From Symmachiella dynata (GTDB taxonomy: Bacteria; Planctomycetota; Planctomycetia; Planctomycetales; Planctomycetaceae): DNA of 64,000 nt. Each line of letters begins with the position of its first letter. Position 1 is the first letter of the stretch. Below the pieces are notes generated by a model. It made no database searches. It saw nothing but the letters and a program-made list of their open reading frames with translations, and had not been told where the DNA came from. Of this stretch, positions 17,855 through 34,673 are shown piece after piece. The position numbers were made by a program, and so were the translations under genes. The stretch spans positions 1,417,001-1,481,000 of the forward strand of contig NZ_CP036276.1 of NCBI RefSeq assembly GCF_007747995.1, given 5' to 3'.

Positions 17855-20800
17855 ATGCATTACGTACCCGAATCGGCCCGTGCTTTTTTAGAAAGTGGCG
17901 GGACCGCGCCTGAAGACGAGGAAGCGACGAGCTTTCATTACGTCTCTGCGCCGCTGTATTTGTTGACAGCGCTTGTGGGTGCGCTGTTGGCGGCTGATTT
18001 TGTCATTCAAATCAGCAACAATCCCGCCTGGGAACCGTATCAGACCGTGTTCGGCTTCCGTTTGGCGCTGCTGGCGGCGGTGATTGGCGGGGCGCGGATT
18101 TTGTATCAGACGCTCGAAGGCCTATTCGATGGGCGGATCGGTGCGGATTTGGCGCTGACGATTGCCTGCTTGGCGGCCATTATTCTCGGCGAGCCGCAGG
18201 TGGCGGCGCTGGTGGTCTTCATCGCCATTTGCGGCGAGAGTATCGAGGGCTACACCAACGGCAAAGCGCGGCAAGCGGTGCTGAGCATTTTCAATCTGCG
18301 CCCCAAAACCGCGCATGTGATACGTGACGGCGACGAGGTGGATGTCGATCTCGATGACGTCGCAGTTGGCGAGCTAGTCGTCGTGCGTCCCGGCGAACGG
18401 ATTCCGGTCGATGGTAGCGTGCTAGCGGGGACCTCGGCGGTCGATCAAAGTTCGCTGACCGGTGAGAGCCTGCCGATTGATAAAGTTCCCGGTGACGAGG
18501 TGTTTGCCGGGACGTTGAATCAGTTCGGGGCACTGTCGGTTGAAGTCGAAAAAACGGGTGAAGAGACGACATTCGGGCAGGTGCTGCGGATGGTGGCCGA
18601 GGCGATGGAGCGGAAAGCGCCCATCGAGCGGACGGCGGATCGGCTGGCGCGGTATTTTTTGCCATTTGTCTTAACAGCTGCGGCAGCCACGTTGGTCGGC
18701 TGGCGGATCGCTGCCGGCGATTGGCGAGCCGGATTGATGCCCGCCTTGGGCGTGTTAGTCGTGGCTTGTCCGTGTCCGTTGATCTTAGCGACGCCCAGCG
18801 CGGTGATGGCAGCGCTGGCGTGGTTGGCGCGCAACGGGGTGGTGACAAAGGGTTCGATTGCCCTGGAGCGTTTGGCCAAGGTCGATTGCATTGCGTTTGA
18901 CAAGACCGGCACGTTGACACGCGGCGAACCGGCACTGGGGGGGATCGTCACCTGGGGGGGATTGGACGAAACCGAGTTATTACGGATCGCGGCGGCGGCG
19001 GAAAAACGGAGCGAACATGTGCTGGCGCGGTTAATCGTCCGCGAAGCCGAGGGCCGCATGTGCGTGGTGCCGGACATCGAAGAATTTGAGGCGCATCCCG
19101 GTTGCGGCGTGACCGGTGCGATTCGCGGGTCATCGCTCGGACCGGACTATACACAGGAGTCGCACCGGGTCGTGGTGGGCAATCGCCGGTTGTTGGAATC
19201 GATGGGCATCGTGTTGCCCGAGGATTTTGAACAACGGTTGGATGAAGTCGAAAATCTAGGCCCGACGCAACTGTTGGTAACGATTGACGGCCAACTGGTG
19301 GGGGCGATTGGCGTACGGGATACGCTACGGCCCGAAGCACGCAAAGTGTTGGCCGAATTGCGCGCCGAGGGGATCGAGTCGTTCGCATTGTTAACGGGTG
19401 ATCGAGCCGAACCCGCGCAAATGGTGGCGGATGCCTTAGAAGGCATCGATGAAATTGGCAGCGAATTGTTGCCGACCGACAAAGCACGGTGGATCGAAGC
19501 GCAGACCAAGGCGGGCAAAAAGGTCGCCATGATTGGCGACGGCATCAACGATGCACCGGCATTGGCCTCGGCGACTGTGGGCCTGGCGCTGGGAGGAGTC
19601 GGCAGCGACGTGGCCGCTGAGGCTGGGGACTTGGTCCTGATGGGGGATCCGCTCACGCCATTGCCCGGTTTGTTGCGTTTGTCGCGGCAGTTGGTACGCG
19701 TGATCAGTCAAAGCATTTATCTGTTTGCGTTTGGGATGAACGGCTTGGGGGTGATTTTGTGCGCATGGGGAATTCTCAGCCCGGTGGGCGGTGCGATCTT
19801 CCATGAATTTGCCTCGTTGGCGGTGATGTTGAATTCGATGCGGTTATTGTGGTTCGAGCGTTGGGACGAAACGCGGTTGGGGCGCGGGGTGGAATCGCTC
19901 GGCGGCTTTTCCGAAGTGGTGGCCACAGCGCTGTCTCCGTCACGGTTGGCTTTCGGATTGGTGCGGCACTGGAAGATGTTGGCCAAGGTGGCTGCAGCGG
20001 CGTTGTTGGTTTATTGGCTGACGTCGAACCTGGTGGTGATTCGCGAAGACGAATCGGCGCTGGTCACGCGTTTTGGTCGGCAAGAGGCGATGTTGAATTC
20101 GGGGATCCATTTCCGTTGGCCCGCTCCACTGGAAGTTGTCCGCCGCGAAAAGTTCGCCAGCATCCGCACAATCCCGTTGGGCTTTCGAGCTCCGCAGCGT
20201 GAGGCGGGCGGCGAGGGACAGGCGTTTGTGGAATGGCAGTCGGAACATACGCGGGCCGATTATCAATCGCGTCCGGAGGAAGCCTTGATTCTCACCGGTG
20301 ATGAGGTGCCGGTGGAGATCACAGCTGAAGTGCATTACCGCATACGGGATCTGAAAAAGTTTGCCTATGCCAGCGCGGACCCGGAGACCATGTTGCGGGC
20401 CGTAGCGGAAACCAAGTTGCGGGGGTTGGCGGCGCATTTGCCGTTGAACGATATATTGACCAGTGGCCGTCAGAAAATGGAGGCGGATTGTCTGGAGCTG
20501 ACGCAGCGTGCGGCGGATGATTACGATTTGGGAGTGGAACTGACCGGTGTGAACCTGCTGGATGTGCATCCGCCGATTGATGTGGTTCCCGCATATCGTG
20601 ACGTCGCTGATGCAATGGAGATGCAACAGAAATTGGTGAACGATGCACAAGCGTATTATGCCCGCAACGTGTTGGAAGCAGCAGGCGAAGATGCGATTCG
20701 TGTGTTGAGCGGATCGACCAGTGACGTGCAATCCGCACCAACGTCAACGACCGGCGGAGTCGCCGATTGGTCGCTCGACGATGAGCTGTGGGCGAAATTG

Positions 20801-21154
20801 ACAACGGAAACGAACGGTAAAAGCCCGTTGTCGGGTCAAGCAGCGTCGAAGCTGCATGCAGCGCATCATCAAAGTGCGCAGCAAGTGCAATCGGCGGTGG
20901 GGGAAGCGGCTCGGTTTGAAAGTCTTTTGAGTGCTCACCGGAGTAACCAACATTTGACACGCACCCAAATGTATTGGGACACGGTCGAGCGCGTGTTGTC
21001 GGTGCGTCCGCTGACAATCATCGATCCAAAGGTAGCGGGGCGGCAGAATTTGTATCTCCTCGATCCGGATCGTTTCGGCGCCGGCAACTCGGTCATGTTG
21101 CCACAAGCACAACCAGAAGAAGAACAACCACTCGTCGGTCAGCCGGAACCATGA
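17855..21154 (+). CDS. P1B-type metal ATPase fused to a C-terminal SPFH (HflK/stomatin) domain
   Basis: A 1099-residue fusion. Residues 1 to about 690 are a heavy-metal P-type ATPase: TGESLPIDK near 203, the transport motif CPCPL near 305, DKTGTLT near 349, and GDGINDAPAL near 560. There is no N-terminal HMA metal-binding domain. The usual SEHP nucleotide-domain motif reads SEHV near 385. A membrane helix at about 708-730 (VAAAALLVYWLTSNLVVI) then leads into an SPFH domain (EDESALVTRFGR, then GIHFRWPAPLEVV) and a coiled tail ending in a Pro/Glu-rich stretch. SPFH proteins form membrane rings around FtsH or organise microdomains. Two more SPFH genes follow, so the three probably form one complex around the pump. 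The ATG at 17855 is chosen; upstream frame is repeat-derived. Confidence 0.9.
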   Translation: MHYVPESARAFLESGGTAPEDEEATSFHYVSAPLYLLTALVGALLAADFVIQISNNPAWEPYQTVFGFRLALLAAVIGGARILYQTLEGLFDGRIGADLALTIACLAAIILGEPQVAALVVFIAICGESIEGYTNGKARQAVLSIFNLRPKTAHVIRDGDEVDVDLDDVAVGELVVVRPGERIPVDGSVLAGTSAVDQSSLTGESLPIDKVPGDEVFAGTLNQFGALSVEVEKTGEETTFGQVLRMVAEAMERKAPIERTADRLARYFLPFVLTAAAATLVGWRIAAGDWRAGLMPALGVLVVACPCPLILATPSAVMAALAWLARNGVVTKGSIALERLAKVDCIAFDKTGTLTRGEPALGGIVTWGGLDETELLRIAAAAEKRSEHVLARLIVREAEGRMCVVPDIEEFEAHPGCGVTGAIRGSSLGPDYTQESHRVVVGNRRLLESMGIVLPEDFEQRLDEVENLGPTQLLVTIDGQLVGAIGVRDTLRPEARKVLAELRAEGIESFALLTGDRAEPAQMVADALEGIDEIGSELLPTDKARWIEAQTKAGKKVAMIGDGINDAPALASATVGLALGGVGSDVAAEAGDLVLMGDPLTPLPGLLRLSRQLVRVISQSIYLFAFGMNGLGVILCAWGILSPVGGAIFHEFASLAVMLNSMRLLWFERWDETRLGRGVESLGGFSEVVATALSPSRLAFGLVRHWKMLAKVAAAALLVYWLTSNLVVIREDESALVTRFGRQEAMLNSGIHFRWPAPLEVVRREKFASIRTIPLGFRAPQREAGGEGQAFVEWQSEHTRADYQSRPEEALILTGDEVPVEITAEVHYRIRDLKKFAYASADPETMLRAVAETKLRGLAAHLPLNDILTSGRQKMEADCLELTQRAADDYDLGVELTGVNLLDVHPPIDVVPAYRDVADAMEMQQKLVNDAQAYYARNVLEAAGEDAIRVLSGSTSDVQSAPTSTTGGVADWSLDDELWAKLTTETNGKSPLSGQAASKLHAAHHQSAQQVQSAVGEAARFESLLSAHRSNQHLTRTQMYWDTVERVLSVRPLTIIDPKVAGRQNLYLLDPDRFGAGNSVMLPQAQPEEEQPLVGQPEP

Positions 21155-21524
21155 TGGTTGGCCGTTGATTATGGCGTTTTGTGAATGAGCATTTAATTGG
21201 TATGGAAAGTCAGTCGAAGATTAAAGTTTTAACGCCAAAGGCGTTAAACATATTAGCCTGGGGGCACGAACGAAGTGAGCACACCCCAGGTTGGTGATGG
21301 AATCGTAGAATACAACCCTGAAGGGGTTGTTCACTCGTCCATCAATGAAATCGTCAGGCCAACGAATGAAAAACCCCTTCAGGGTTTTTTCGTCGTCAAT
21401 GATGGATTTCCTAGGGTGGCGCGGCTGTGTCGCTTACCCTAGGCTATGGTGATTCACCCCGTTGGGGTGTTTGTTGGGATGCACGCGGAATTGTTTGACC
21501 GGATTTGTGGAACTACTGAAAACC
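21155..21524. other. Hairpin-rich intergenic region
   Basis: About 370 bases packed with short inverted repeats: TTTAACGCC/GGCGTTAAA (21228-21248), CCTGGGG/CCCCAGG (21257-21290), CAACCC/GGGTTG (21313-21329), AAAACCC/GGGTTTT (21369-21390), CCTAGGGT/ACCCTAGG (21410-21443) and CACCCC/GGGGTG (21455-21469). No coding frame is credible. It separates the ATPase-SPFH fusion from the next SPFH gene. Confidence 0.65.
21369..21390 (+). terminator. Possible rho-independent terminator
   Basis: AAAAACCC-CTTCA-GGGTTTTTT: an eight-base stem ending in a T run on the plus strand, with an A run on the other side, so it could work in both directions. If active it would partly uncouple the fusion gene from the two downstream SPFH genes. 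Confidence 0.45.
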
Positions 21525-22685
21525 ATGAGTGACGTTGTGACAAAACCAGGATCTGAATCAACTGCCGGTCGCCGATTGGCGCGCCGTGCCTTGCGGACGC
21601 TGGTCCTGTGGGGGGCGGTCTTTGCAGTCATCGCTCTGTTGGCCAGTTGCGTGGTGTTTGTGGATGAGACGCAATACGTGATCGTCGAGCGACTGGGGAC
21701 CATTGCGGCTGTTTATGACCGGGATGAGGATCGCGGCTTGCAGTTCAAGTTGCCGTGGCCGATTTCGACGGTGCGGACGTTTGACCGCCGGTTGCAATTG
21801 CTCGATCCGCCGGGGCGTGAATTGTTCACGGGAGATAAGAAAAATATCACGGTCGATACTTACGTCTGTTGGCGGATTGCTCCCACGTCCGCGGAATCGT
21901 CGGCGGAACTTTCCGACCGGCCGGTGGTGCGATTTTTTCGTTCGCTGGGAAATGTCTCCACGGCTGAGGACCGCTTGATGTCGCGGTTGCAGTCGTTGTT
22001 GTCGGCCGAGTTTGGCCGGGTGGAGTTGACCGATCTGCTCAGCGTCGAAAACTCCGAAGCGGGTCCGCAGGGGGACAGTTCAATGGAGTCGCTCACGGAG
22101 CGTTTGAAGTCGCGGTTTGAAAAATCGGAGGAGGGGGCGACCTCACCGCGTGAGGCATTGGGGATTGAAATCGTCGATGTGCGGATCAAACGGATCAATC
22201 TTCCCGAAGCGAACCGGTTTGCTGTGTTTGAGCGGATGAAAAGCGAACGTCAAAAAATCGCCGATCGTTATCGCAGCGCAGGGCTGGCGCAGAATACCGT
22301 GATCCGCAGTCAAGCGGACCGGCAGCGTGAGGAGATTCTCGCCAAGGCCGATGCGGATGCACAGCGGATTCGCGGTACGGGGGAAGCCGAAGCGCTGCGG
22401 ATTTTGAATCAAGCTCATGCGCAGGATCCAGAGTTTTATCGTTTCGAGCGGACGCTACAGTCGTATCACAAGATTCTCAATGAACGGACCACGCTGGTAC
22501 TTTCGGCCTCCAGTGCGTTGCTAAAATTATTGACCGAAGGAATTCCCGATATTCAAGAACCCCAGCCGGAAACCAAGTCGGCTGATCCGTCGACGGATGC
22601 ACCCGTTGCGGAGAAAAACGTGTCACAATCGTCAGCGACTCCCGATACGATTTCCGAGAAAACGCGTGCGGAGGCCACAAAGTGA
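21525..22685 (+). CDS. SPFH-domain membrane protein (HflK-like)
   Basis: A 386-residue protein: one N-terminal membrane helix (TLVLWGAVFAVIALLASCVVF), an SPFH/band-7 domain beginning VDETQYVIVERLG and KLPWPISTVRTFDRR, then an Ala/Glu/Arg-rich coiled coil (ADRQREEILAKADADAQRI) and an acidic Pro/Ser-rich C-terminus. HflK and HflC form a large periplasmic-facing cage around the FtsH protease in other bacteria. ATG at 21525 is chosen over an in-frame ATG at 21462. Its stop overlaps the GTG of the next SPFH gene by four bases, giving an HflK/HflC-style pair. Confidence 0.85.
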   Translation: MSDVVTKPGSESTAGRRLARRALRTLVLWGAVFAVIALLASCVVFVDETQYVIVERLGTIAAVYDRDEDRGLQFKLPWPISTVRTFDRRLQLLDPPGRELFTGDKKNITVDTYVCWRIAPTSAESSAELSDRPVVRFFRSLGNVSTAEDRLMSRLQSLLSAEFGRVELTDLLSVENSEAGPQGDSSMESLTERLKSRFEKSEEGATSPREALGIEIVDVRIKRINLPEANRFAVFERMKSERQKIADRYRSAGLAQNTVIRSQADRQREEILAKADADAQRIRGTGEAEALRILNQAHAQDPEFYRFERTLQSYHKILNERTTLVLSASSALLKLLTEGIPDIQEPQPETKSADPSTDAPVAEKNVSQSSATPDTISEKTRAEATK

Positions 22686-23641
22686 AACGCGCGTTGGTCG
22701 TGATCTTGATTCTTGTCGCTGGTTATTTTGCTAGCGGGCTGTACATCGTGGGGGGCAATGAAAAAGCGCTCCTGCGACGTTTCGGCCGCGCGCGGTTGCC
22801 GCTGGTCGGGAGCGGGTTGCATTACGCGCTGCCCTGGCCGATGACCACGATCTCCCGCATCAATCCCAGCGAAGTCCGTACGCTGCAAATCGGGGGTGTG
22901 GCCTCGGAGTCGCTGGAAGGGGATCAATTTCTCTTGGCGGCCGATCAGTACCAGCTTGATGAGTTTCTTACCGGCGACAAGAACATTTTGAATGTTCAGG
23001 TCAACGTGCAATACCGGATTTCCGAAGCGGATGCGGCCGATTATTTGTTTGGCTGTGTTAATCCCGAAGAGCATTTGCGGTTAATGACCGAGTCGTTATT
23101 GGGAGACGTGGTTGCTCGTAGCGGCGTCGATTTTGTACACCCCTTGGGGTTGGCCGAATTGCGAGCGATGCTGACTCAACGTACACGGGAGTTGGTACAG
23201 TCGCATCGTTTGGGAATTGTGATTGAAGATGTAGACATCGCCGGTGTCTCACCACCGTTGTTGGTGAAGCAGGCATTTGTGGATGTGAGCAATGCGCGAG
23301 CCTCGAAACAACGGTTTATTAATGAGGCCTTGGCCTATCGAGAACAAACCGTGGCCGCCGCTTCGGCGAACGCACGGAAAAATGTGGATGAAGCAGAAAC
23401 CGCGCGACGGTCGGCGATTGAGTCGGCGCGCGGCGAAGCGGACCGCTTCGGAAAAATCGTCGCCCAGTTCCAAGCCGATGCCGACGGCGGCGTGCAAACC
23501 TATGAGCAATCGCGTCAAATGACCTTGCGGCAAAAGTATCTGGAAATGTTGGAAACCATCGTCCCCAAACTGGCCAGCAAGGCGCTGCTTGATACCGACA
23601 AGCCGGTGAACTTGACGATTTTTCCTGAAAACAATAAGTGA
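22682..23641 (+). CDS. SPFH-domain membrane protein (HflC-like)
   Basis: A 319-residue protein: N-terminal helix (VVILILVAGYFASGLYIVG), SPFH domain starting NEKALLRRFGRARLPLVG with LPWPMTTISRINPSE, a middle region with VNVQYRISEADAADYLFG, and a coiled coil (ARKNVDEAETARRSAIES). Third SPFH domain in a row after the ATPase fusion. The GTG start at 22682 overlaps the preceding stop (GTGA). The expected partners are the HflK-like protein and possibly the pump; FtsH itself is not encoded in this window. Confidence 0.85.
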   Translation: MKRALVVILILVAGYFASGLYIVGGNEKALLRRFGRARLPLVGSGLHYALPWPMTTISRINPSEVRTLQIGGVASESLEGDQFLLAADQYQLDEFLTGDKNILNVQVNVQYRISEADAADYLFGCVNPEEHLRLMTESLLGDVVARSGVDFVHPLGLAELRAMLTQRTRELVQSHRLGIVIEDVDIAGVSPPLLVKQAFVDVSNARASKQRFINEALAYREQTVAAASANARKNVDEAETARRSAIESARGEADRFGKIVAQFQADADGGVQTYEQSRQMTLRQKYLEMLETIVPKLASKALLDTDKPVNLTIFPENNK

Positions 23642-23686: not shown

Positions 23687-23840
23687 TCACCACGGAGGCA
23701 CGAAGGACACGGAGAAAAAAACTGTAGGCTTTTGACTGTCGAAAATGGTTCAACAGCTGCCCTCTAAAACCTAAAACCTAAGGCCTAAAGCCTAAAGCCT
23801 AAAGCCTATGGCCTCTGTGCCCTCCGTGCCTCCGTGGTGA
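23687..23840. repeat. 28-bp inverted repeat flanking a heptamer array
   Basis: Arms at 23687-23714 and 23813-23840 (TCACCACGGAGGCACG against CGTGCCTCCGTGGTGA, with a few mismatches further in) enclose about 98 bases. The enclosed part ends with seven tandem 7-bp units at 23765-23813 (TAAAACC, TAAGGCC, TAAAGCC). The right arm ends 28 bases before mqnA. Confidence 0.75.
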
Positions 23841-23868
23841 AAAACATTTTTTGCAGGAACATGAACAA

Positions 23869-24684
23869 ATGACTGGACGGAGTCCGGATACGGTGCGTGT
23901 GGGGGCCGTGAATTATTTGAATTCTAAGCCGCTGGTCGAAGATTTGGCTGCGGCTGAGGGAAGTGAGCTTCGGCTCGACTATCCCAGTCGGTTGGCGGAT
24001 GATTTGGCGGGCGGCCATTTGGATGTGGCGTTGGTGCCCTCGATTGCCTGTCTGCAAAACCCGGATTATGAAGTGATTTCCGACGCTTGCGTGGCGGCTT
24101 GTGGCGATGTGCTCAGCGTGAAATTGTATTGCCGCGTGCCGGCGGCAGAAATCAAGACGTTGGCGCTGGATCAAGGATCGCGGACCAGTGCGACGTTGGT
24201 GCGGATTTTGTTGGCCGAGCGGTTTGGCTTGCATCCGGAACTCAAACCGTTGCCCTTGACCTGGTCGGTGGCGGACAGTGATGCCGACGGGGTGTTGATG
24301 ATCGGTGATCGGGCGATTCATCCCCCGGCGGAGAAGTTTGTCGAAACCTGGGATCTGGCCGGTGAGTGGTTACAGTGGACCGGGTTGCCGTTTGTGTTTG
24401 CCATGTGGGTGGCGCATCGGGAGACCGATTTGGGCAGCGTGGCCGATGCGCTCAGTGCGGCCCGTGATTTGGGCGTCGAACGGATCGAGGCAATCGCCCG
24501 GCGGGAAGCGCCGTTGTTGGGGATTCCGCTGGACACGACGATTGACTACTTGACGAATAATCTTTATTACCGGTTGGGAGAGCGGGAACGCCTTGGACTG
24601 AATCGGTTTTATGAGTTGGCCGTCGAGCACGGCTTGGCTCCGGAGGGAGTGGATCTTGTCTTCAGAAATTGCGCCACTACTTGA
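23869..24684 (+). CDS. mqnA: Chorismate dehydratase MqnA (futalosine pathway)
   Basis: Converts chorismate to 3-enolpyruvyl-benzoate, the first step of the futalosine route to menaquinone. The N-terminus RVGAVNYLNSKPL is the family hallmark. A periplasmic-binding-protein-like fold follows, with DVALVPSIACL, the LDQGSRTSATLVRILL strand, and DGVLMIGDRAI. Length 271 is typical. ATG at 23869 is preferred to a TTG at 23851. The gene overlaps mqnC, the next recognised pathway enzyme here; mqnB, mqnD and mqnE are not in this window. Confidence 0.92.
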   Translation: MTGRSPDTVRVGAVNYLNSKPLVEDLAAAEGSELRLDYPSRLADDLAGGHLDVALVPSIACLQNPDYEVISDACVAACGDVLSVKLYCRVPAAEIKTLALDQGSRTSATLVRILLAERFGLHPELKPLPLTWSVADSDADGVLMIGDRAIHPPAEKFVETWDLAGEWLQWTGLPFVFAMWVAHRETDLGSVADALSAARDLGVERIEAIARREAPLLGIPLDTTIDYLTNNLYYRLGERERLGLNRFYELAVEHGLAPEGVDLVFRNCATT

Positions 24685-25795
24685 AAAAGCGGTCGACGGC
24701 GGCCGGCTGACGCCCGAAGAAGGGCTGAAGCTGCTTGAGTCGCACGATTTGAACGCGCTGGGCGAAGCGGCCAATGCGGTAACGCAGCGGCTGCATCCCG
24801 AGCCGTACCGCACGTATAACATCGATCGGAATATCAATTACACCAACGCCTGCACGGCGGTGTGTGATTTTTGCGCGTTTTATCGTCCGCCCGATCACCC
24901 CGAAGTTTACGTGCTCGAACGCGAGGAATTGTACAAAAAGCTGCAGGAAACGGTCGAATTGGGAGGAGACCAGATCCTGCTGCAAGGGGGACTGCATCCC
25001 AAGTTGCCGTTGGAATGGTACGAAGAGCTGCTGTCCGATTTGCGCTCGCACTTTCCACAGATCAATATTCACGGGTTCAGTCCGCCGGAGATTCATCACT
25101 TCACCAAGATCAGCAAATTGCCGCTCAAAACCGTGCTGGAGCGGCTCAAGGCAGCGGGCTTGGGGAGTTTGCCGGGCGGGGGTGGTGAGATTCTGGTAGA
25201 TCGGGTTCGCAAAGAGATCACCCGCGGCAAGGTGTTGACGGATGACTGGTTGAATGTGAATCGCGTGTGGCACGAATTGGGGGGCCGTTCGTCGGCAACG
25301 ATGATGTTTGGTCATGTGGAGACCTTGGCCGAGCGGATCGAGCATTTGGAACGGCTGCGGCAAGTGCAGGACGAAACGGGTGGATTCACCGCTTATATTT
25401 GCTGGACATTCCAGCCGGACAATACGGACCTGTCGCACATCCCGCCGGTTGGTGCGTTTGAGTACTTGAAGACCCAAGCGGTGAGCCGGTTGTATTTGGA
25501 CAATTTTGCGAATATCCAATCGTCCTGGGTCACGCAGGGAGAAAAAGTGGGGCAGATGGCGCTGTATTTCGGTGCCAACGACATGGGCAGCTTGATGATC
25601 GAAGAAAACGTCGTCGCGGAGGCGGGGACGGTGCATTATTTATCGTTGGAAACGATTCGTCGAGTTATTCAGGAATGCGGTTATATACCGCGGCAGCGCA
25701 ACGTGTTTTATGAGTACATTGACGAAGTTGACGAGGCCACATCGTTGGAATTGGCCGGTCATGCGGGTTCGTCGTCGCTGAACGTGTTGCCGTAG
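24656..25795 (+). CDS. mqnC: Cyclic dehypoxanthinyl futalosine synthase MqnC (radical SAM)
   Basis: Radical SAM enzyme that cyclises dehypoxanthinyl futalosine in menaquinone synthesis. Seen: NINYTNACTAVCDFCAFYR with the Cys-x3-Cys-x2-Cys cluster, GGDQILLQGGLHP, HGFSPPEIHH, GLGSLPGGGGEILVDRVR, RSSATMMFGHVE, ETGGFTAYICWTFQP and QGEKVGQMALYFGANDMG. These fit MqnC better than the related MqnE. The TTG at 24656 has GGAGGGAG immediately upstream and gives 379 residues, overlapping mqnA by 29 bases; the ATG at 24611 lacks such a site. Confidence 0.92.
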   Translation: MSSEIAPLLEKAVDGGRLTPEEGLKLLESHDLNALGEAANAVTQRLHPEPYRTYNIDRNINYTNACTAVCDFCAFYRPPDHPEVYVLEREELYKKLQETVELGGDQILLQGGLHPKLPLEWYEELLSDLRSHFPQINIHGFSPPEIHHFTKISKLPLKTVLERLKAAGLGSLPGGGGEILVDRVRKEITRGKVLTDDWLNVNRVWHELGGRSSATMMFGHVETLAERIEHLERLRQVQDETGGFTAYICWTFQPDNTDLSHIPPVGAFEYLKTQAVSRLYLDNFANIQSSWVTQGEKVGQMALYFGANDMGSLMIEENVVAEAGTVHYLSLETIRRVIQECGYIPRQRNVFYEYIDEVDEATSLELAGHAGSSSLNVLP

Positions 25796-32480: not shown

Positions 32481-32517
32481 ACCCTCACGCCTGTCACCTC
32501 AAGCCTCACGCCTATCA
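32481..32517. repeat. Short heptamer array overlapping a gene end
   Basis: Five degenerate 7-bp units (CCTCAC G, CCTGTCA, CCTCAAG, CCTCACG, CCTATCA). The minus-strand ATPase gene ends inside it: the array supplies its last five residues and stop codon. Confidence 0.6.
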
Positions 32518-34673
32518 GCAGCGTTCAGCAGTCGTAGACCGTTGAAAATAACCAGGAGCGAGGCGCCCATGTCGGCGGCGATGGCCATCCAGAGTGTGGC
32601 TTCGCCAAACAGCGTGAGGATGATGAACAAGACCTTGAGGCCGAGCGCGAAGACGATGTTTTGACGGACGATGGTGAGCGTTCGCCGTGCGTGTCGAATC
32701 AGCCAGGGGATTCGTGAAAGGTCGTCGGACATCAGGGCCACATCGGCGGTTTCGATGGCGGTGTCGGTTCCCATGGCTGCCATGGCGATTCCGACGGTTG
32801 AGGCGGCCAGTGCGGGGGCGTCGTTCACGCCATCGCCGACCATCGCCACGCCCTCGCCTTGGGAGGTGAGCTGTTGGATGTAGTTCAGTTTATCTTCGGG
32901 CAGGCATTCAGCTTTGACGTGATCGGCAGCGATGATCTGGGCGACGGCTTCAGCGGTGGCTTGATTGTCGCCGGTGAGAATGTCGATACGCTTCACGCCA
33001 GCTTCACGCAGGGAGACGAGGACCTGCGCGGCGATTTCGCGAGGCGCATCGGCGACGCTGATCAGTCCAATAACCTGTTTGCGGGTGCCGACGGCGATTA
33101 CGGAGTGGCCGGCCTGTTCTAGTTCCATCGCTTTTTCGTGGACGCCGGGTGATTCATCTGCCTGTTCGTGGACCAGGCGGTGGCTGCCGATCCAATAGGG
33201 TTCGCCGGCGATGTTGCCCACCACACCGCGACCGCTGAGCAACTGGTGGTCCTCGACTGTGGGGGTATCGATCTCCTCGGCGGCGGCGAAGTGCCGGATG
33301 GCGCTGGCGATGGGGTGACTGCTTTGTGCTTCCAGTGCGGAGGCGACTTCGAGCAGTTGTTTGCGCGAATAGGAATTGACCGGCGTGACGGATTGCACTA
33401 CAGGTTTACCGACCGTGATCGTGCCGGTTTTATCAAAGGCGATGGTTTGGATCGTGGCGCACGACTCCAGGTACCGTCCTCCTTTGATGAGCACCCCTTG
33501 ACGGGCAGCTGCTGTGAGAGCTGAAACGATGCTGACGGGAGTGGAGATGACCAGCGCACAGGGGCAGGCAATGACCAACACGACCAGTCCACGGTAAATC
33601 CATTCGCTCCAATTGGCGGCGAACAGCAGAGGGGGAATGACTGCGATGGTGAGGGCCAAAGCCATCATCGCCGGCGTATAGTATTGGGCGAATCGCTCGA
33701 CCCATTGTTGGCTGGGCGCGCGGGCGGCTTGGGCTTCTTCGACCATTTGCGCGATGCGGGCCAGTGTCGAGTCGGCGGCGATGTGCGTGACTTCGATTTC
33801 CAGCGCGCCGTCTTCATTGATGGTGCCGGCAAAGACTTCTTGGCCGGGCTGTTTGTCGACCGGGCGGGACTCGCCGGTGATTGGGGCTTCGTTGATGGCG
33901 GACTGGCCGGCGCGGATAACGCCATCGAGCGGGATTTTTTCACCGGGTCGGACTGAGATTAATGCACCCAATTCGATATCTTCGACCGGCAAGGATTCGG
34001 CCTTGCCCGCGGCATCGATTCGCCGTGCAGTGGGAGGAGAAAGGTCCATGAGTGCGGAGATCGCCCGTCGCGCGCGGCCCATGCTCCAGTGTTCCAGCAA
34101 GAGTGCTACGCAGAACAGAAAGGAGACGGTGGCAGCTTCGAACCATTCGTTGATGGCGATCGCGCCAAAGACAGCGACGGTCATCAACAGGTTCATATCG
34201 GGTTGGCGGCGACTGAGTGCAGCCCAGGCTTTGGGGGCGACTTGCCATAAGGCGGCGAGAATGGCGGCCATGTAGGCGGCGCGAGACGTCCAAAATGCGG
34301 CGGAGTCACCGGCATGTGTGAATTGAATTGTGGTGCCGATGATCAGAGACGCAGCGGAGAGGGCAGCCAGCCAAGTCGGCCATTGTTTCCACCAGGGGAG
34401 GGCGTGCTGGGCGGAAAGCGGTGCCCAGGGTTGCGCCCGCATCCCGATTTCGGAAATGCGGGTGATGATCTGTTTGGGGTCGGTGACGGCCTGATCGTAG
34501 ATGGCCGTCATGCGGTTTTTGAAGATGTCGAATTTGAGTTCGACGATCCCCGGTTGACGTCCCACGGCCTGTTCGAGTTGGCGAATCTCCTCGGCACAAT
34601 CCAATTCAGCAACGCGGAATTGAGCGGTCCGCACGGAGCGCGGGCGATCCGATTCTTCAGGTTGTCCCTGCAT
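32499..34673 (-). CDS. Heavy-metal P1B-type ATPase (ZntA/CadA-like)
   Basis: A 724-residue metal exporter. A degenerate N-terminal HMA-like domain keeps a single cysteine (ELDCAEE, Cys26). The membrane part has the transport motif CPCAL near 371; the cytoplasmic part has TGESRPVDK, DKTGTIT near 414, the SSHPIA dipeptide near 451 and GDGVNDAPAL near 612. CPC with this order fits Zn/Cd/Pb pumps, though copper cannot be excluded. Unlike the fusion at 17855, all canonical motifs are intact. The gene converges on the YTV gene, with a terminator between. Confidence 0.93.
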   Translation of the reverse strand: MQGQPEESDRPRSVRTAQFRVAELDCAEEIRQLEQAVGRQPGIVELKFDIFKNRMTAIYDQAVTDPKQIITRISEIGMRAQPWAPLSAQHALPWWKQWPTWLAALSAASLIIGTTIQFTHAGDSAAFWTSRAAYMAAILAALWQVAPKAWAALSRRQPDMNLLMTVAVFGAIAINEWFEAATVSFLFCVALLLEHWSMGRARRAISALMDLSPPTARRIDAAGKAESLPVEDIELGALISVRPGEKIPLDGVIRAGQSAINEAPITGESRPVDKQPGQEVFAGTINEDGALEIEVTHIAADSTLARIAQMVEEAQAARAPSQQWVERFAQYYTPAMMALALTIAVIPPLLFAANWSEWIYRGLVVLVIACPCALVISTPVSIVSALTAAARQGVLIKGGRYLESCATIQTIAFDKTGTITVGKPVVQSVTPVNSYSRKQLLEVASALEAQSSHPIASAIRHFAAAEEIDTPTVEDHQLLSGRGVVGNIAGEPYWIGSHRLVHEQADESPGVHEKAMELEQAGHSVIAVGTRKQVIGLISVADAPREIAAQVLVSLREAGVKRIDILTGDNQATAEAVAQIIAADHVKAECLPEDKLNYIQQLTSQGEGVAMVGDGVNDAPALAASTVGIAMAAMGTDTAIETADVALMSDDLSRIPWLIRHARRTLTIVRQNIVFALGLKVLFIILTLFGEATLWMAIAADMGASLLVIFNGLRLLNAADRREA

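Follow-up and report, generated by a model that had tools for sequence, protein, structure and literature searches.

A metal P1B-type ATPase fused to an HflK-type SPFH subunit in a planctomycete operon: a candidate caged metal pump

In published descriptions, HflK and HflC of E. coli alternate in a 24-subunit cage reaching into the periplasm and act on FtsH. A channel can be held by an SPFH protein, as the structure titled as human stomatin with aquaporin 1 (PDB 9zd2) illustrates; there the chains are separate, the setting is eukaryotic and what is held is a water channel. Similar in gene content is the hmtA locus of Pseudomonas aeruginosa, likened here from the literature, where three SPFH genes accompany a metal P-type ATPase and the regulation is reported to be zinc-linked; the pump, however, is a separate gene. 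The subject of this report is a locus in which a metal pump and an SPFH subunit are one polypeptide, namely the gene here called K1 together with the two SPFH genes that follow it, in a stretch of 64,000 nucleotides of the planctomycete Symmachiella dynata (contig NZ_CP036276.1, positions 1,417,001 to 1,481,000 of the forward strand), which is termed the window and in whose numbering positions are given (Table 1).

For P. aeruginosa, PA2435 (HmtA) and PA2437-PA2439 (HflC/HflK family) are reported to go up 5.6- to 14.4-fold on zinc depletion, with the proteins of the locus rising too, significantly so for PA2438 and PA2439. The promoter of PA2439, the first gene of the locus, is reported to be shifted by Zur; hmtA mRNA was unrepressed by added zinc in the same study, and one review exempts hmtA from Zur binding. 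The literature passages in question describe no SPFH role in zinc handling. An SPFH operon of strain PA14, PaFlo5-7, is stated in a 2026 paper (PMC13086221) to be dispensable for growth, with horizontal transfer suggested. It probably corresponds to PA2439-PA2437; the main text of that paper contains none of the words ‘P-type’, ‘cation’, ‘efflux’ or ‘transporter’, and the main text of a 2009 SPFH survey contains neither ‘ATPase’ nor ‘transporter’. No description of an SPFH or HflK fusion with a P-type ATPase, a CDF or an SO_0444 transporter was found in the literature searched, most subscription papers lying outside that search. An earlier note on this DNA, made from its letters without database searches, had known of no described system of this form; this stands for the fusion, with the qualification that an unfused relative is half known from the hmtA locus.

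K1 consists of a complete P1B-type metal ATPase and an SPFH subunit of HflK type, with one additional membrane helix between them. Its frame is uninterrupted for 1099 codons, from an ATG at 17855 to a stop at 21152-21154, with the choice of start backed by an N-terminal MHYxPES conserved in the alignment of relatives; that a single frame carries ATPase, helix and SPFH domain had been seen in the earlier note and is borne out by the stop-free frame, the profiles and the relatives alike. The NCBIfam model for heavy-metal P-type ATPases, TIGR01525, matches residues 98-664 with 549.7 bits (cut-off 346.25), and that for HflK, TIGR01933, matches residues 727-951 with 160.3 bits, barely passing its cut-off of 159.4; Pfam E1-E2_ATPase, Hydrolase and Band_7 all exceed theirs. 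The pump has the catalytic motifs TGES, DKTGTLT at residue 349 (Asp349) and GDGINDAP at residue 561, and the CPx motif of its fourth core membrane helix is CPC (residues 305-307). CPC, DKTGTLT and His650 are invariant across 17 aligned sequences, the window's K1 included; in its nucleotide-binding part K1 has His-Val in place of His-Pro, at a site that varies in the family (HP, HL, HV, HH).

These catalytic motifs and the CPC in M4 are shared with ZntA, CopA and CoaT, from which K1 differs in its ninth helix and C-terminal SPFH part and in that the Pfam scan found no N-terminal heavy-metal-binding domain, such a domain being usual in P1B ATPases and not required. The Cd-family model is passed (441.8 against a cut-off of 313.5) and the Cu model narrowly missed (392.4 against 397), and the ZntA/CopA equivalog cut-offs are missed by far (NF008262, NF033775 and NF007952 at 403.0, 344.3 and 329.4 against 1005, 1240 and 1316). 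The best PDB sequence match of the pump is 7qbz, entitled a cadmium translocating P-type ATPase. Foldseek with the AlphaFold (AF2) model of the whole chain gives copper, zinc and cadmium P1B pumps as its top matches; with the model of the last 410 residues, the top match is the HflK chain of an HflK/C assembly, 9cz2 (E 1.7e-18). The metal would most likely be a zinc-like divalent ion or copper. We take 7qbz to be sCoaT. The use of E. coli HflK Arg191 as a marker of FtsH contact was dropped, residue 191 being Ala in the sequence used, a mismatch of numbering.

Downstream, the second gene passes the HflC model TIGR01932 (194.5 bits, cut-off 134.4) and the third, K2, passes Band_7 (51.1 bits, cut-off 23.6); the two overlap by four bases, 22682-22685, as the earlier note had it. 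That note's set of three SPFH genes with the pump covalently part of it thereby stands and is sharpened: the subunits are HflK, HflC and HflK (K-C-K), and not those of a two-gene hflK-hflC operon. The resemblance to HflK-HflC-FtsH of E. coli lies in the homology of the subunits, the adjacency of the genes, the best fold match of K1 and an expected common topology, N-terminus in and C-terminus out; the differences are the K-C-K series, the P1B pump on the first HflK and the location of ftsH elsewhere.

With a profile running from the pump end into the SPFH part, the fusion is found in 54 of 120 genomes of the family (each at least 90% complete, that of S. dynata included) and in 24 of 50 genera, as one locus per genome except in one genome with two pieces (G014), and with an open frame of at least 1000 residues in 50 of the 54. 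Within a set of 40 genomes, again including its own, ten others match K1 over most of its length, meaning that the match ends at residue 1068 or later, and without an internal stop (L002-L005, L007, L008, L010, L012-L014); further matches there are partial or ended by contig edges. Comparison of K1 with its orthologue in genome G002 gives ratios of nonsynonymous to synonymous change (pN/pS) of 0.17 for the ATPase, 0.36 for the junction and 0.26 for both the SPFH part and the tail, with synonymous divergence (dS) near saturation. An overlooked stop between two genes and a spurious frameshift are both ruled out by the frame being open in many relatives and by the pN/pS of the junction, and an ordinary HflK/C pair with an unrelated neighbour is ruled out since the pump shares its frame with the SPFH part. 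A scan of named genomes with the pump-SPFH profile yields 36 loci, 35 in records titled as planctomycetes and one titled just ‘bacterium’; one of these stops within the pump (L101) and two have a frame break in the pump part (L071, L100).

Both the fusion and its gene order recur across planctomycetes, which is a check that the note had named. Among the 40 non-redundant fused loci with room, that is with more than 2.6 kb downstream, HflC is next in 34, and HflC and then HflK follow in 32 (31 by script, plus L039, whose HflC match was split); ten loci repeating an already included contig were removed before neighbours and order were counted. Since no other listed neighbour cluster exceeds 9 of 45 loci, once clusters taken for shadow frames of the HflC and HflK genes are set aside, the conserved unit is K1-HflC-K2. 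The possibilities raised at the outset, that the ATPase and SPFH parts would turn out to be separate genes with a stop between them here, or that the three SPFH genes would not co-occur elsewhere, are answered by the absence of such a stop and by those 32 loci. K-C-K operons with a separate ATPase do exist in relatives, even in the same genus (L022), and are a second, distinct operon: in a genus mate (G001) the fused operon (L029) and L022 coexist.

The P1B pump is one among several unrelated transporters that occupy the same position on the first HflK. HflK searches of 392 genomes of the phylum gave, among the matches listed, HflKs in pairs, one long and one short, separated by about 2 kb, and 49 places from these searches are K-C-K operons with other multi-helix domains on the first HflK, apart from a few of the fused P1B type and three plain K-C pairs (L133-L135). 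The types were sorted with hidden Markov models built from the same loci, which sort types and prove none; the independent tests are those of Pfam and NCBIfam. CDF-HflK fusions pass TIGR01297 in three of three tested (94.7, 120.3 and 101.4 against 82.35) and Pfam Cation_efflux likewise in three of three. Fusions of an SO_0444 Cu/Zn exporter to HflK pass NF033936 in three of three tested (390.9, 401.2 and 319.5 against 300) and Pfam ArsP_1 in five of five. K-C-K order holds where there is room at 3/3 CDF and 13/13 SO_0444 loci, and a ZIP gene, confirmed by Pfam in one case, lies upstream in 11 of 14 SO_0444 loci. Both kinds of transporter sit at the N-terminal place on HflK in these sister triads as the pump does in K1, with neither present in the window, and profile comparison detects no kinship between the P1B, CDF and SO_0444 profiles.

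A fourth type, of 28 loci, carries a six-transmembrane-helix (6-TM) domain without a Pfam match on its first HflK; four of its loci (L111, L112, L115, L121) were typed by hand, the domain match being weak or missing. Among those with room, HflC is next in 26/26, HflK then follows in 25/26 and a P-type ATPase is beside the triad in 24/26; these separate pumps are termed type D, a name that also covers HmtA-type operons, where three SPFH genes have a P-type ATPase as an unfused neighbour. The operon L022 of the genus mate is of the 6-TM type. Kinship of the 6-TM domain with CDF is weak (18.5% probability). P1B pumps have eight core membrane helices and CDF transporters six. Hydropathy counts fit eight for the SO_0444 type and about six for the 6-TM type, and such even numbers would preserve the orientation of HflK. 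The plain K-C pairs have an HflK without a fused transporter, and neither they nor three annotated plasmid K-C pairs have a P-type ATPase fused or neighbouring; after the K-C pair of a Pontibacillus plasmid there is a cation:proton antiporter at about 1 kb, and a Persicobacter record carries no annotation.

Some further features of the 6-TM loci are recorded for their own sake. The CPx motif of type-D pumps (e.g. L022 9109-11064) varies between CPC, CPG, CPS, CPT and TPC. An ABC transporter ATP-binding gene is by the triad at L056, L114, L116, L119, L123, L125-L127, L130 and L131, mostly directly after the P-type ATPase, and genes that by eye resemble ABC permeases precede some triads. His-rich stretches occur only in five frames, all of this type (HflC 1/27, K 2/28, long K 2/26; loci L059, L107, L111, L115, L122), and are absent from P1B-type frames (0/44, 0/42 and 0/57, repeats kept). 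As evidence on cage proteins they were dropped, 46 of 892 background frames being positive too.

In the HflK tree the domains group by position and type, with long and second HflKs separate and the deep branches modestly supported, and the approximately unbiased test does not reject a single clade for every HflK that bears a transporter (p 0.427). No claim is made here for a single origin with swaps or for several fusions. In a quick tree the P-type ATPases linked to triads occupy three places: a clade of fused pumps (13 rows, support 100), a clade of type-D pumps (19 rows, among them three from proteobacterial plasmids, support 99), and, as the third, ZntA-like pumps from the neighbourhood of CDF triads. 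HmtA itself is outside the set of this tree. The fused pump of S. dynata is thus in a different starred clade from the type-D pumps of HmtA-type operons. The tree does not resolve the relation of the two clades, so that pumps joined SPFH triads at least twice.

Beyond the phylum the search was of a plasmid collection. For the P1B-SPFH fusion, none of the best 5000 plasmid records covers 80% of the protein. A conjugative plasmid of Aquibium oceanicum encodes CDF-HflK, HflC and HflK together with a PPIase, a P-type ATPase and the copper genes PCu(A)C and SCO; its CDF-HflK scores 90.0 with TIGR01297 (cut-off 82.35), and its record is the only one of 318 matching plasmid records to cover 80% of the CDF-HflK query. 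The annotation of that gene (L136 8995-10542) says no more than FtsH protease activity modulator HflK. On plasmids of Klebsiella aerogenes, Paraburkholderia sprentiae and Burkholderia ubonensis, genes for a long HflK, HflC, HflK or SPFH, and a P-type ATPase stand consecutively, and in Paraburkholderia a zinc ABC transporter and PCu(A)C are close by. A different arrangement is seen on a plasmid from Fusobacteriota (L102 2296-5697), where only 12 bp separate a CopA-like pump from the SPFH gene after it and a metal-sensitive regulator lies in the vicinity.

The interpretation that we consider probable is that the operon specifies an SPFH cage of the HflK/C kind, into whose wall a transition-metal pump is built. 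The eight-helix pump would end in the cytosol and the ninth helix would carry the chain out to the periplasm; because eight pump helices and one more take the chain outside, the SPFH part can occupy the location of HflK, as a periplasmic HflK-type segment of the wall. HflC and K2 would furnish the remaining wall subunits, with K1 and K2 sharing the HflK places because the E. coli cage is built of alternating HflK and HflC chains. Each K1 would anchor a single pump in the membrane at the base of the wall, the outer mouth of the pump opening inside the cage or at its foot, so that ATP-driven transport would lead to, or be fed from, a walled chamber within the periplasm and not the open periplasm. 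Clustering and shielding of pumps would be the likeliest benefit. An SPFH ring in which the pump is embedded, or by which it is gated, as the note suggested, is likewise a matter of inference.

Several observations weigh against this interpretation. K2, at 148.0 bits, falls below the TIGR01933 cut-off of 159.4, as do several other long HflKs (L051 151.2, L052 145.6, L022 98.4, L137 70.8, L138 66.3). Model confidence is middling (mean pLDDT 69.9 for whole K1, 68.9 for the last 410 residues), TM-scores against the 9cz2 HflK chain are 0.40 and 0.57 and the root-mean-square deviation is 29.8, and the AF2 models are of single chains. The fusion is patchy, 66 of the 120 family genomes being without a match, and no conserved metal regulator was found beside the fused operons in the neighbour-cluster count given above. 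Two of the 40 fused loci with room have HflC alone after the fusion, and six have no adjoining HflC or second HflK. These last six would also be accommodated if the SPFH part were a mere tag for localisation or stability on an ordinary exporter, with no cage, a use in keeping with published descriptions of SPFH proteins as microdomain scaffolds. It is judged unlikely, given the K-C-K order kept in most loci and with three other transporter types, and given that the chains best matched by the K1 model are those of the HflK/C cage.

A different purpose for a cage-borne pump would be control of FtsH, with the pump as the metal-sensing arm of an HflK/C modulator and its metal load altering FtsH proteolysis. 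The action of HflK and HflC on FtsH in E. coli speaks for the idea; in the S. dynata genome (G000) two ftsH genes score above cut-off, and since the HflK profile at E 1e-20 has just two matches there, K1 and K2, the triad may be the sole HflK/C set. Both ftsH genes are far from the operon, however, and the presence of unrelated metal transporters at the same place is left unexplained, so that FtsH control appears very unlikely.

Within the caged-pump interpretation efflux is the favoured direction, because the family names of CDF and SO_0444 transporters mark them as exporters and a need for SO_0444 in zinc or copper stress is reported. HmtA, the best studied relative and described as a Cu/Zn importer, renders the direction uncertain, and this too counts against the interpretation as favoured. 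The same architecture could serve uptake under starvation, the cage gathering periplasmic metal and the pump driving it inward, an alternative that overlaps with the favoured one. The response of the hmtA locus to zinc depletion and the Zur shift at PA2439 would suit it, as would the zinc ABC transporter near the Paraburkholderia operon and the ZIP genes upstream of SO_0444-HflK. Passing the Cd-family cut-off is uninformative on direction, as fused pumps and the type-D pumps tested do so alike. Set against uptake are the separateness of the fused and type-D clades (both starred), the naming of CDF and SO_0444 for efflux, and one review in which import by HmtA is said to be in need of confirmation. 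Uptake is kept in view because of the report on HmtA, and seems rather unlikely.

Table 1. Features of the operon in the window (aa, residues of the encoded protein)
Feature	Position	Strand	Basis
K1, P1B metal ATPase and HflK-type SPFH subunit fused, 1099 aa	17855..21154	+	reading frame, profile matches, conserved N-terminus
P1B-type ATPase part, about aa 26-669	17930..19861	+	motifs, profiles, Foldseek
Ninth membrane helix, about aa 705-724, joining pump to SPFH domain	19967..20026	+	AF2 helix 706-723, hydrophobic sequence; topology predicted
SPFH domain of HflK type with the beginning of the coiled coil, aa 727-951	20033..20707	+	TIGR01933, Foldseek
K1 C-terminal helical region, aa 952-1099, end modelled at low confidence	20708..21151	+	AF2 models
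Spacer between K1 and HflC, 370 bp, containing a dispersed repeat	21155..21524	+	genome self-comparison
HflC, gene 2, 386 aa, ATG start	21525..22685	+	TIGR01932
K2, second HflK, 319 aa, GTG start	22682..23641	+	TIGR01933, Band_7

The repeat in the spacer is up to about 240 bp long and has 22 matches in the genome, itself included. It contains position 21369, where a terminator had been suspected; that position is not among the sites listed by the terminator scan. Between the triad and the next gene, short tandem heptamers like cctaaag are seen by eye at 23765-23810. The genes beyond (23851-25795) are, we presume, mqnA and mqnC of the menaquinone pathway, and among the loci compared they adjoin the triad only in L029 and L030 besides. 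The opposite strand encodes, at 32499-34673, a second P1B ATPase. It is 724 aa long, shows CPC and also a DMG signature, and has pumps beside CDF triads as its nearest neighbours in the tree.

The role of most bacterial SPFH assemblies is an open question. With a cage subunit and a metal transporter in one polypeptide, and with unrelated transporters occupying one and the same place, it becomes directly testable whether a cage can surround a transporter, and a role is offered for the SPFH triad beside the metal ATPase HmtA of Pseudomonas. At least some genes with the annotation FtsH protease modulator HflK, that of Aquibium being one, are transporter fusions. More tentatively, there may be a general bacterial class of K-C-K cages with exchangeable metal transporters (P1B, CDF, SO_0444, and 6-TM together with a type-D P-type ATPase), mostly covalent, in which metal would pass into or out of a walled periplasmic chamber and not the bulk periplasm, and which would also spread across phyla on plasmids. 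The finding suggests that some bacteria move metals via a caged transporter.

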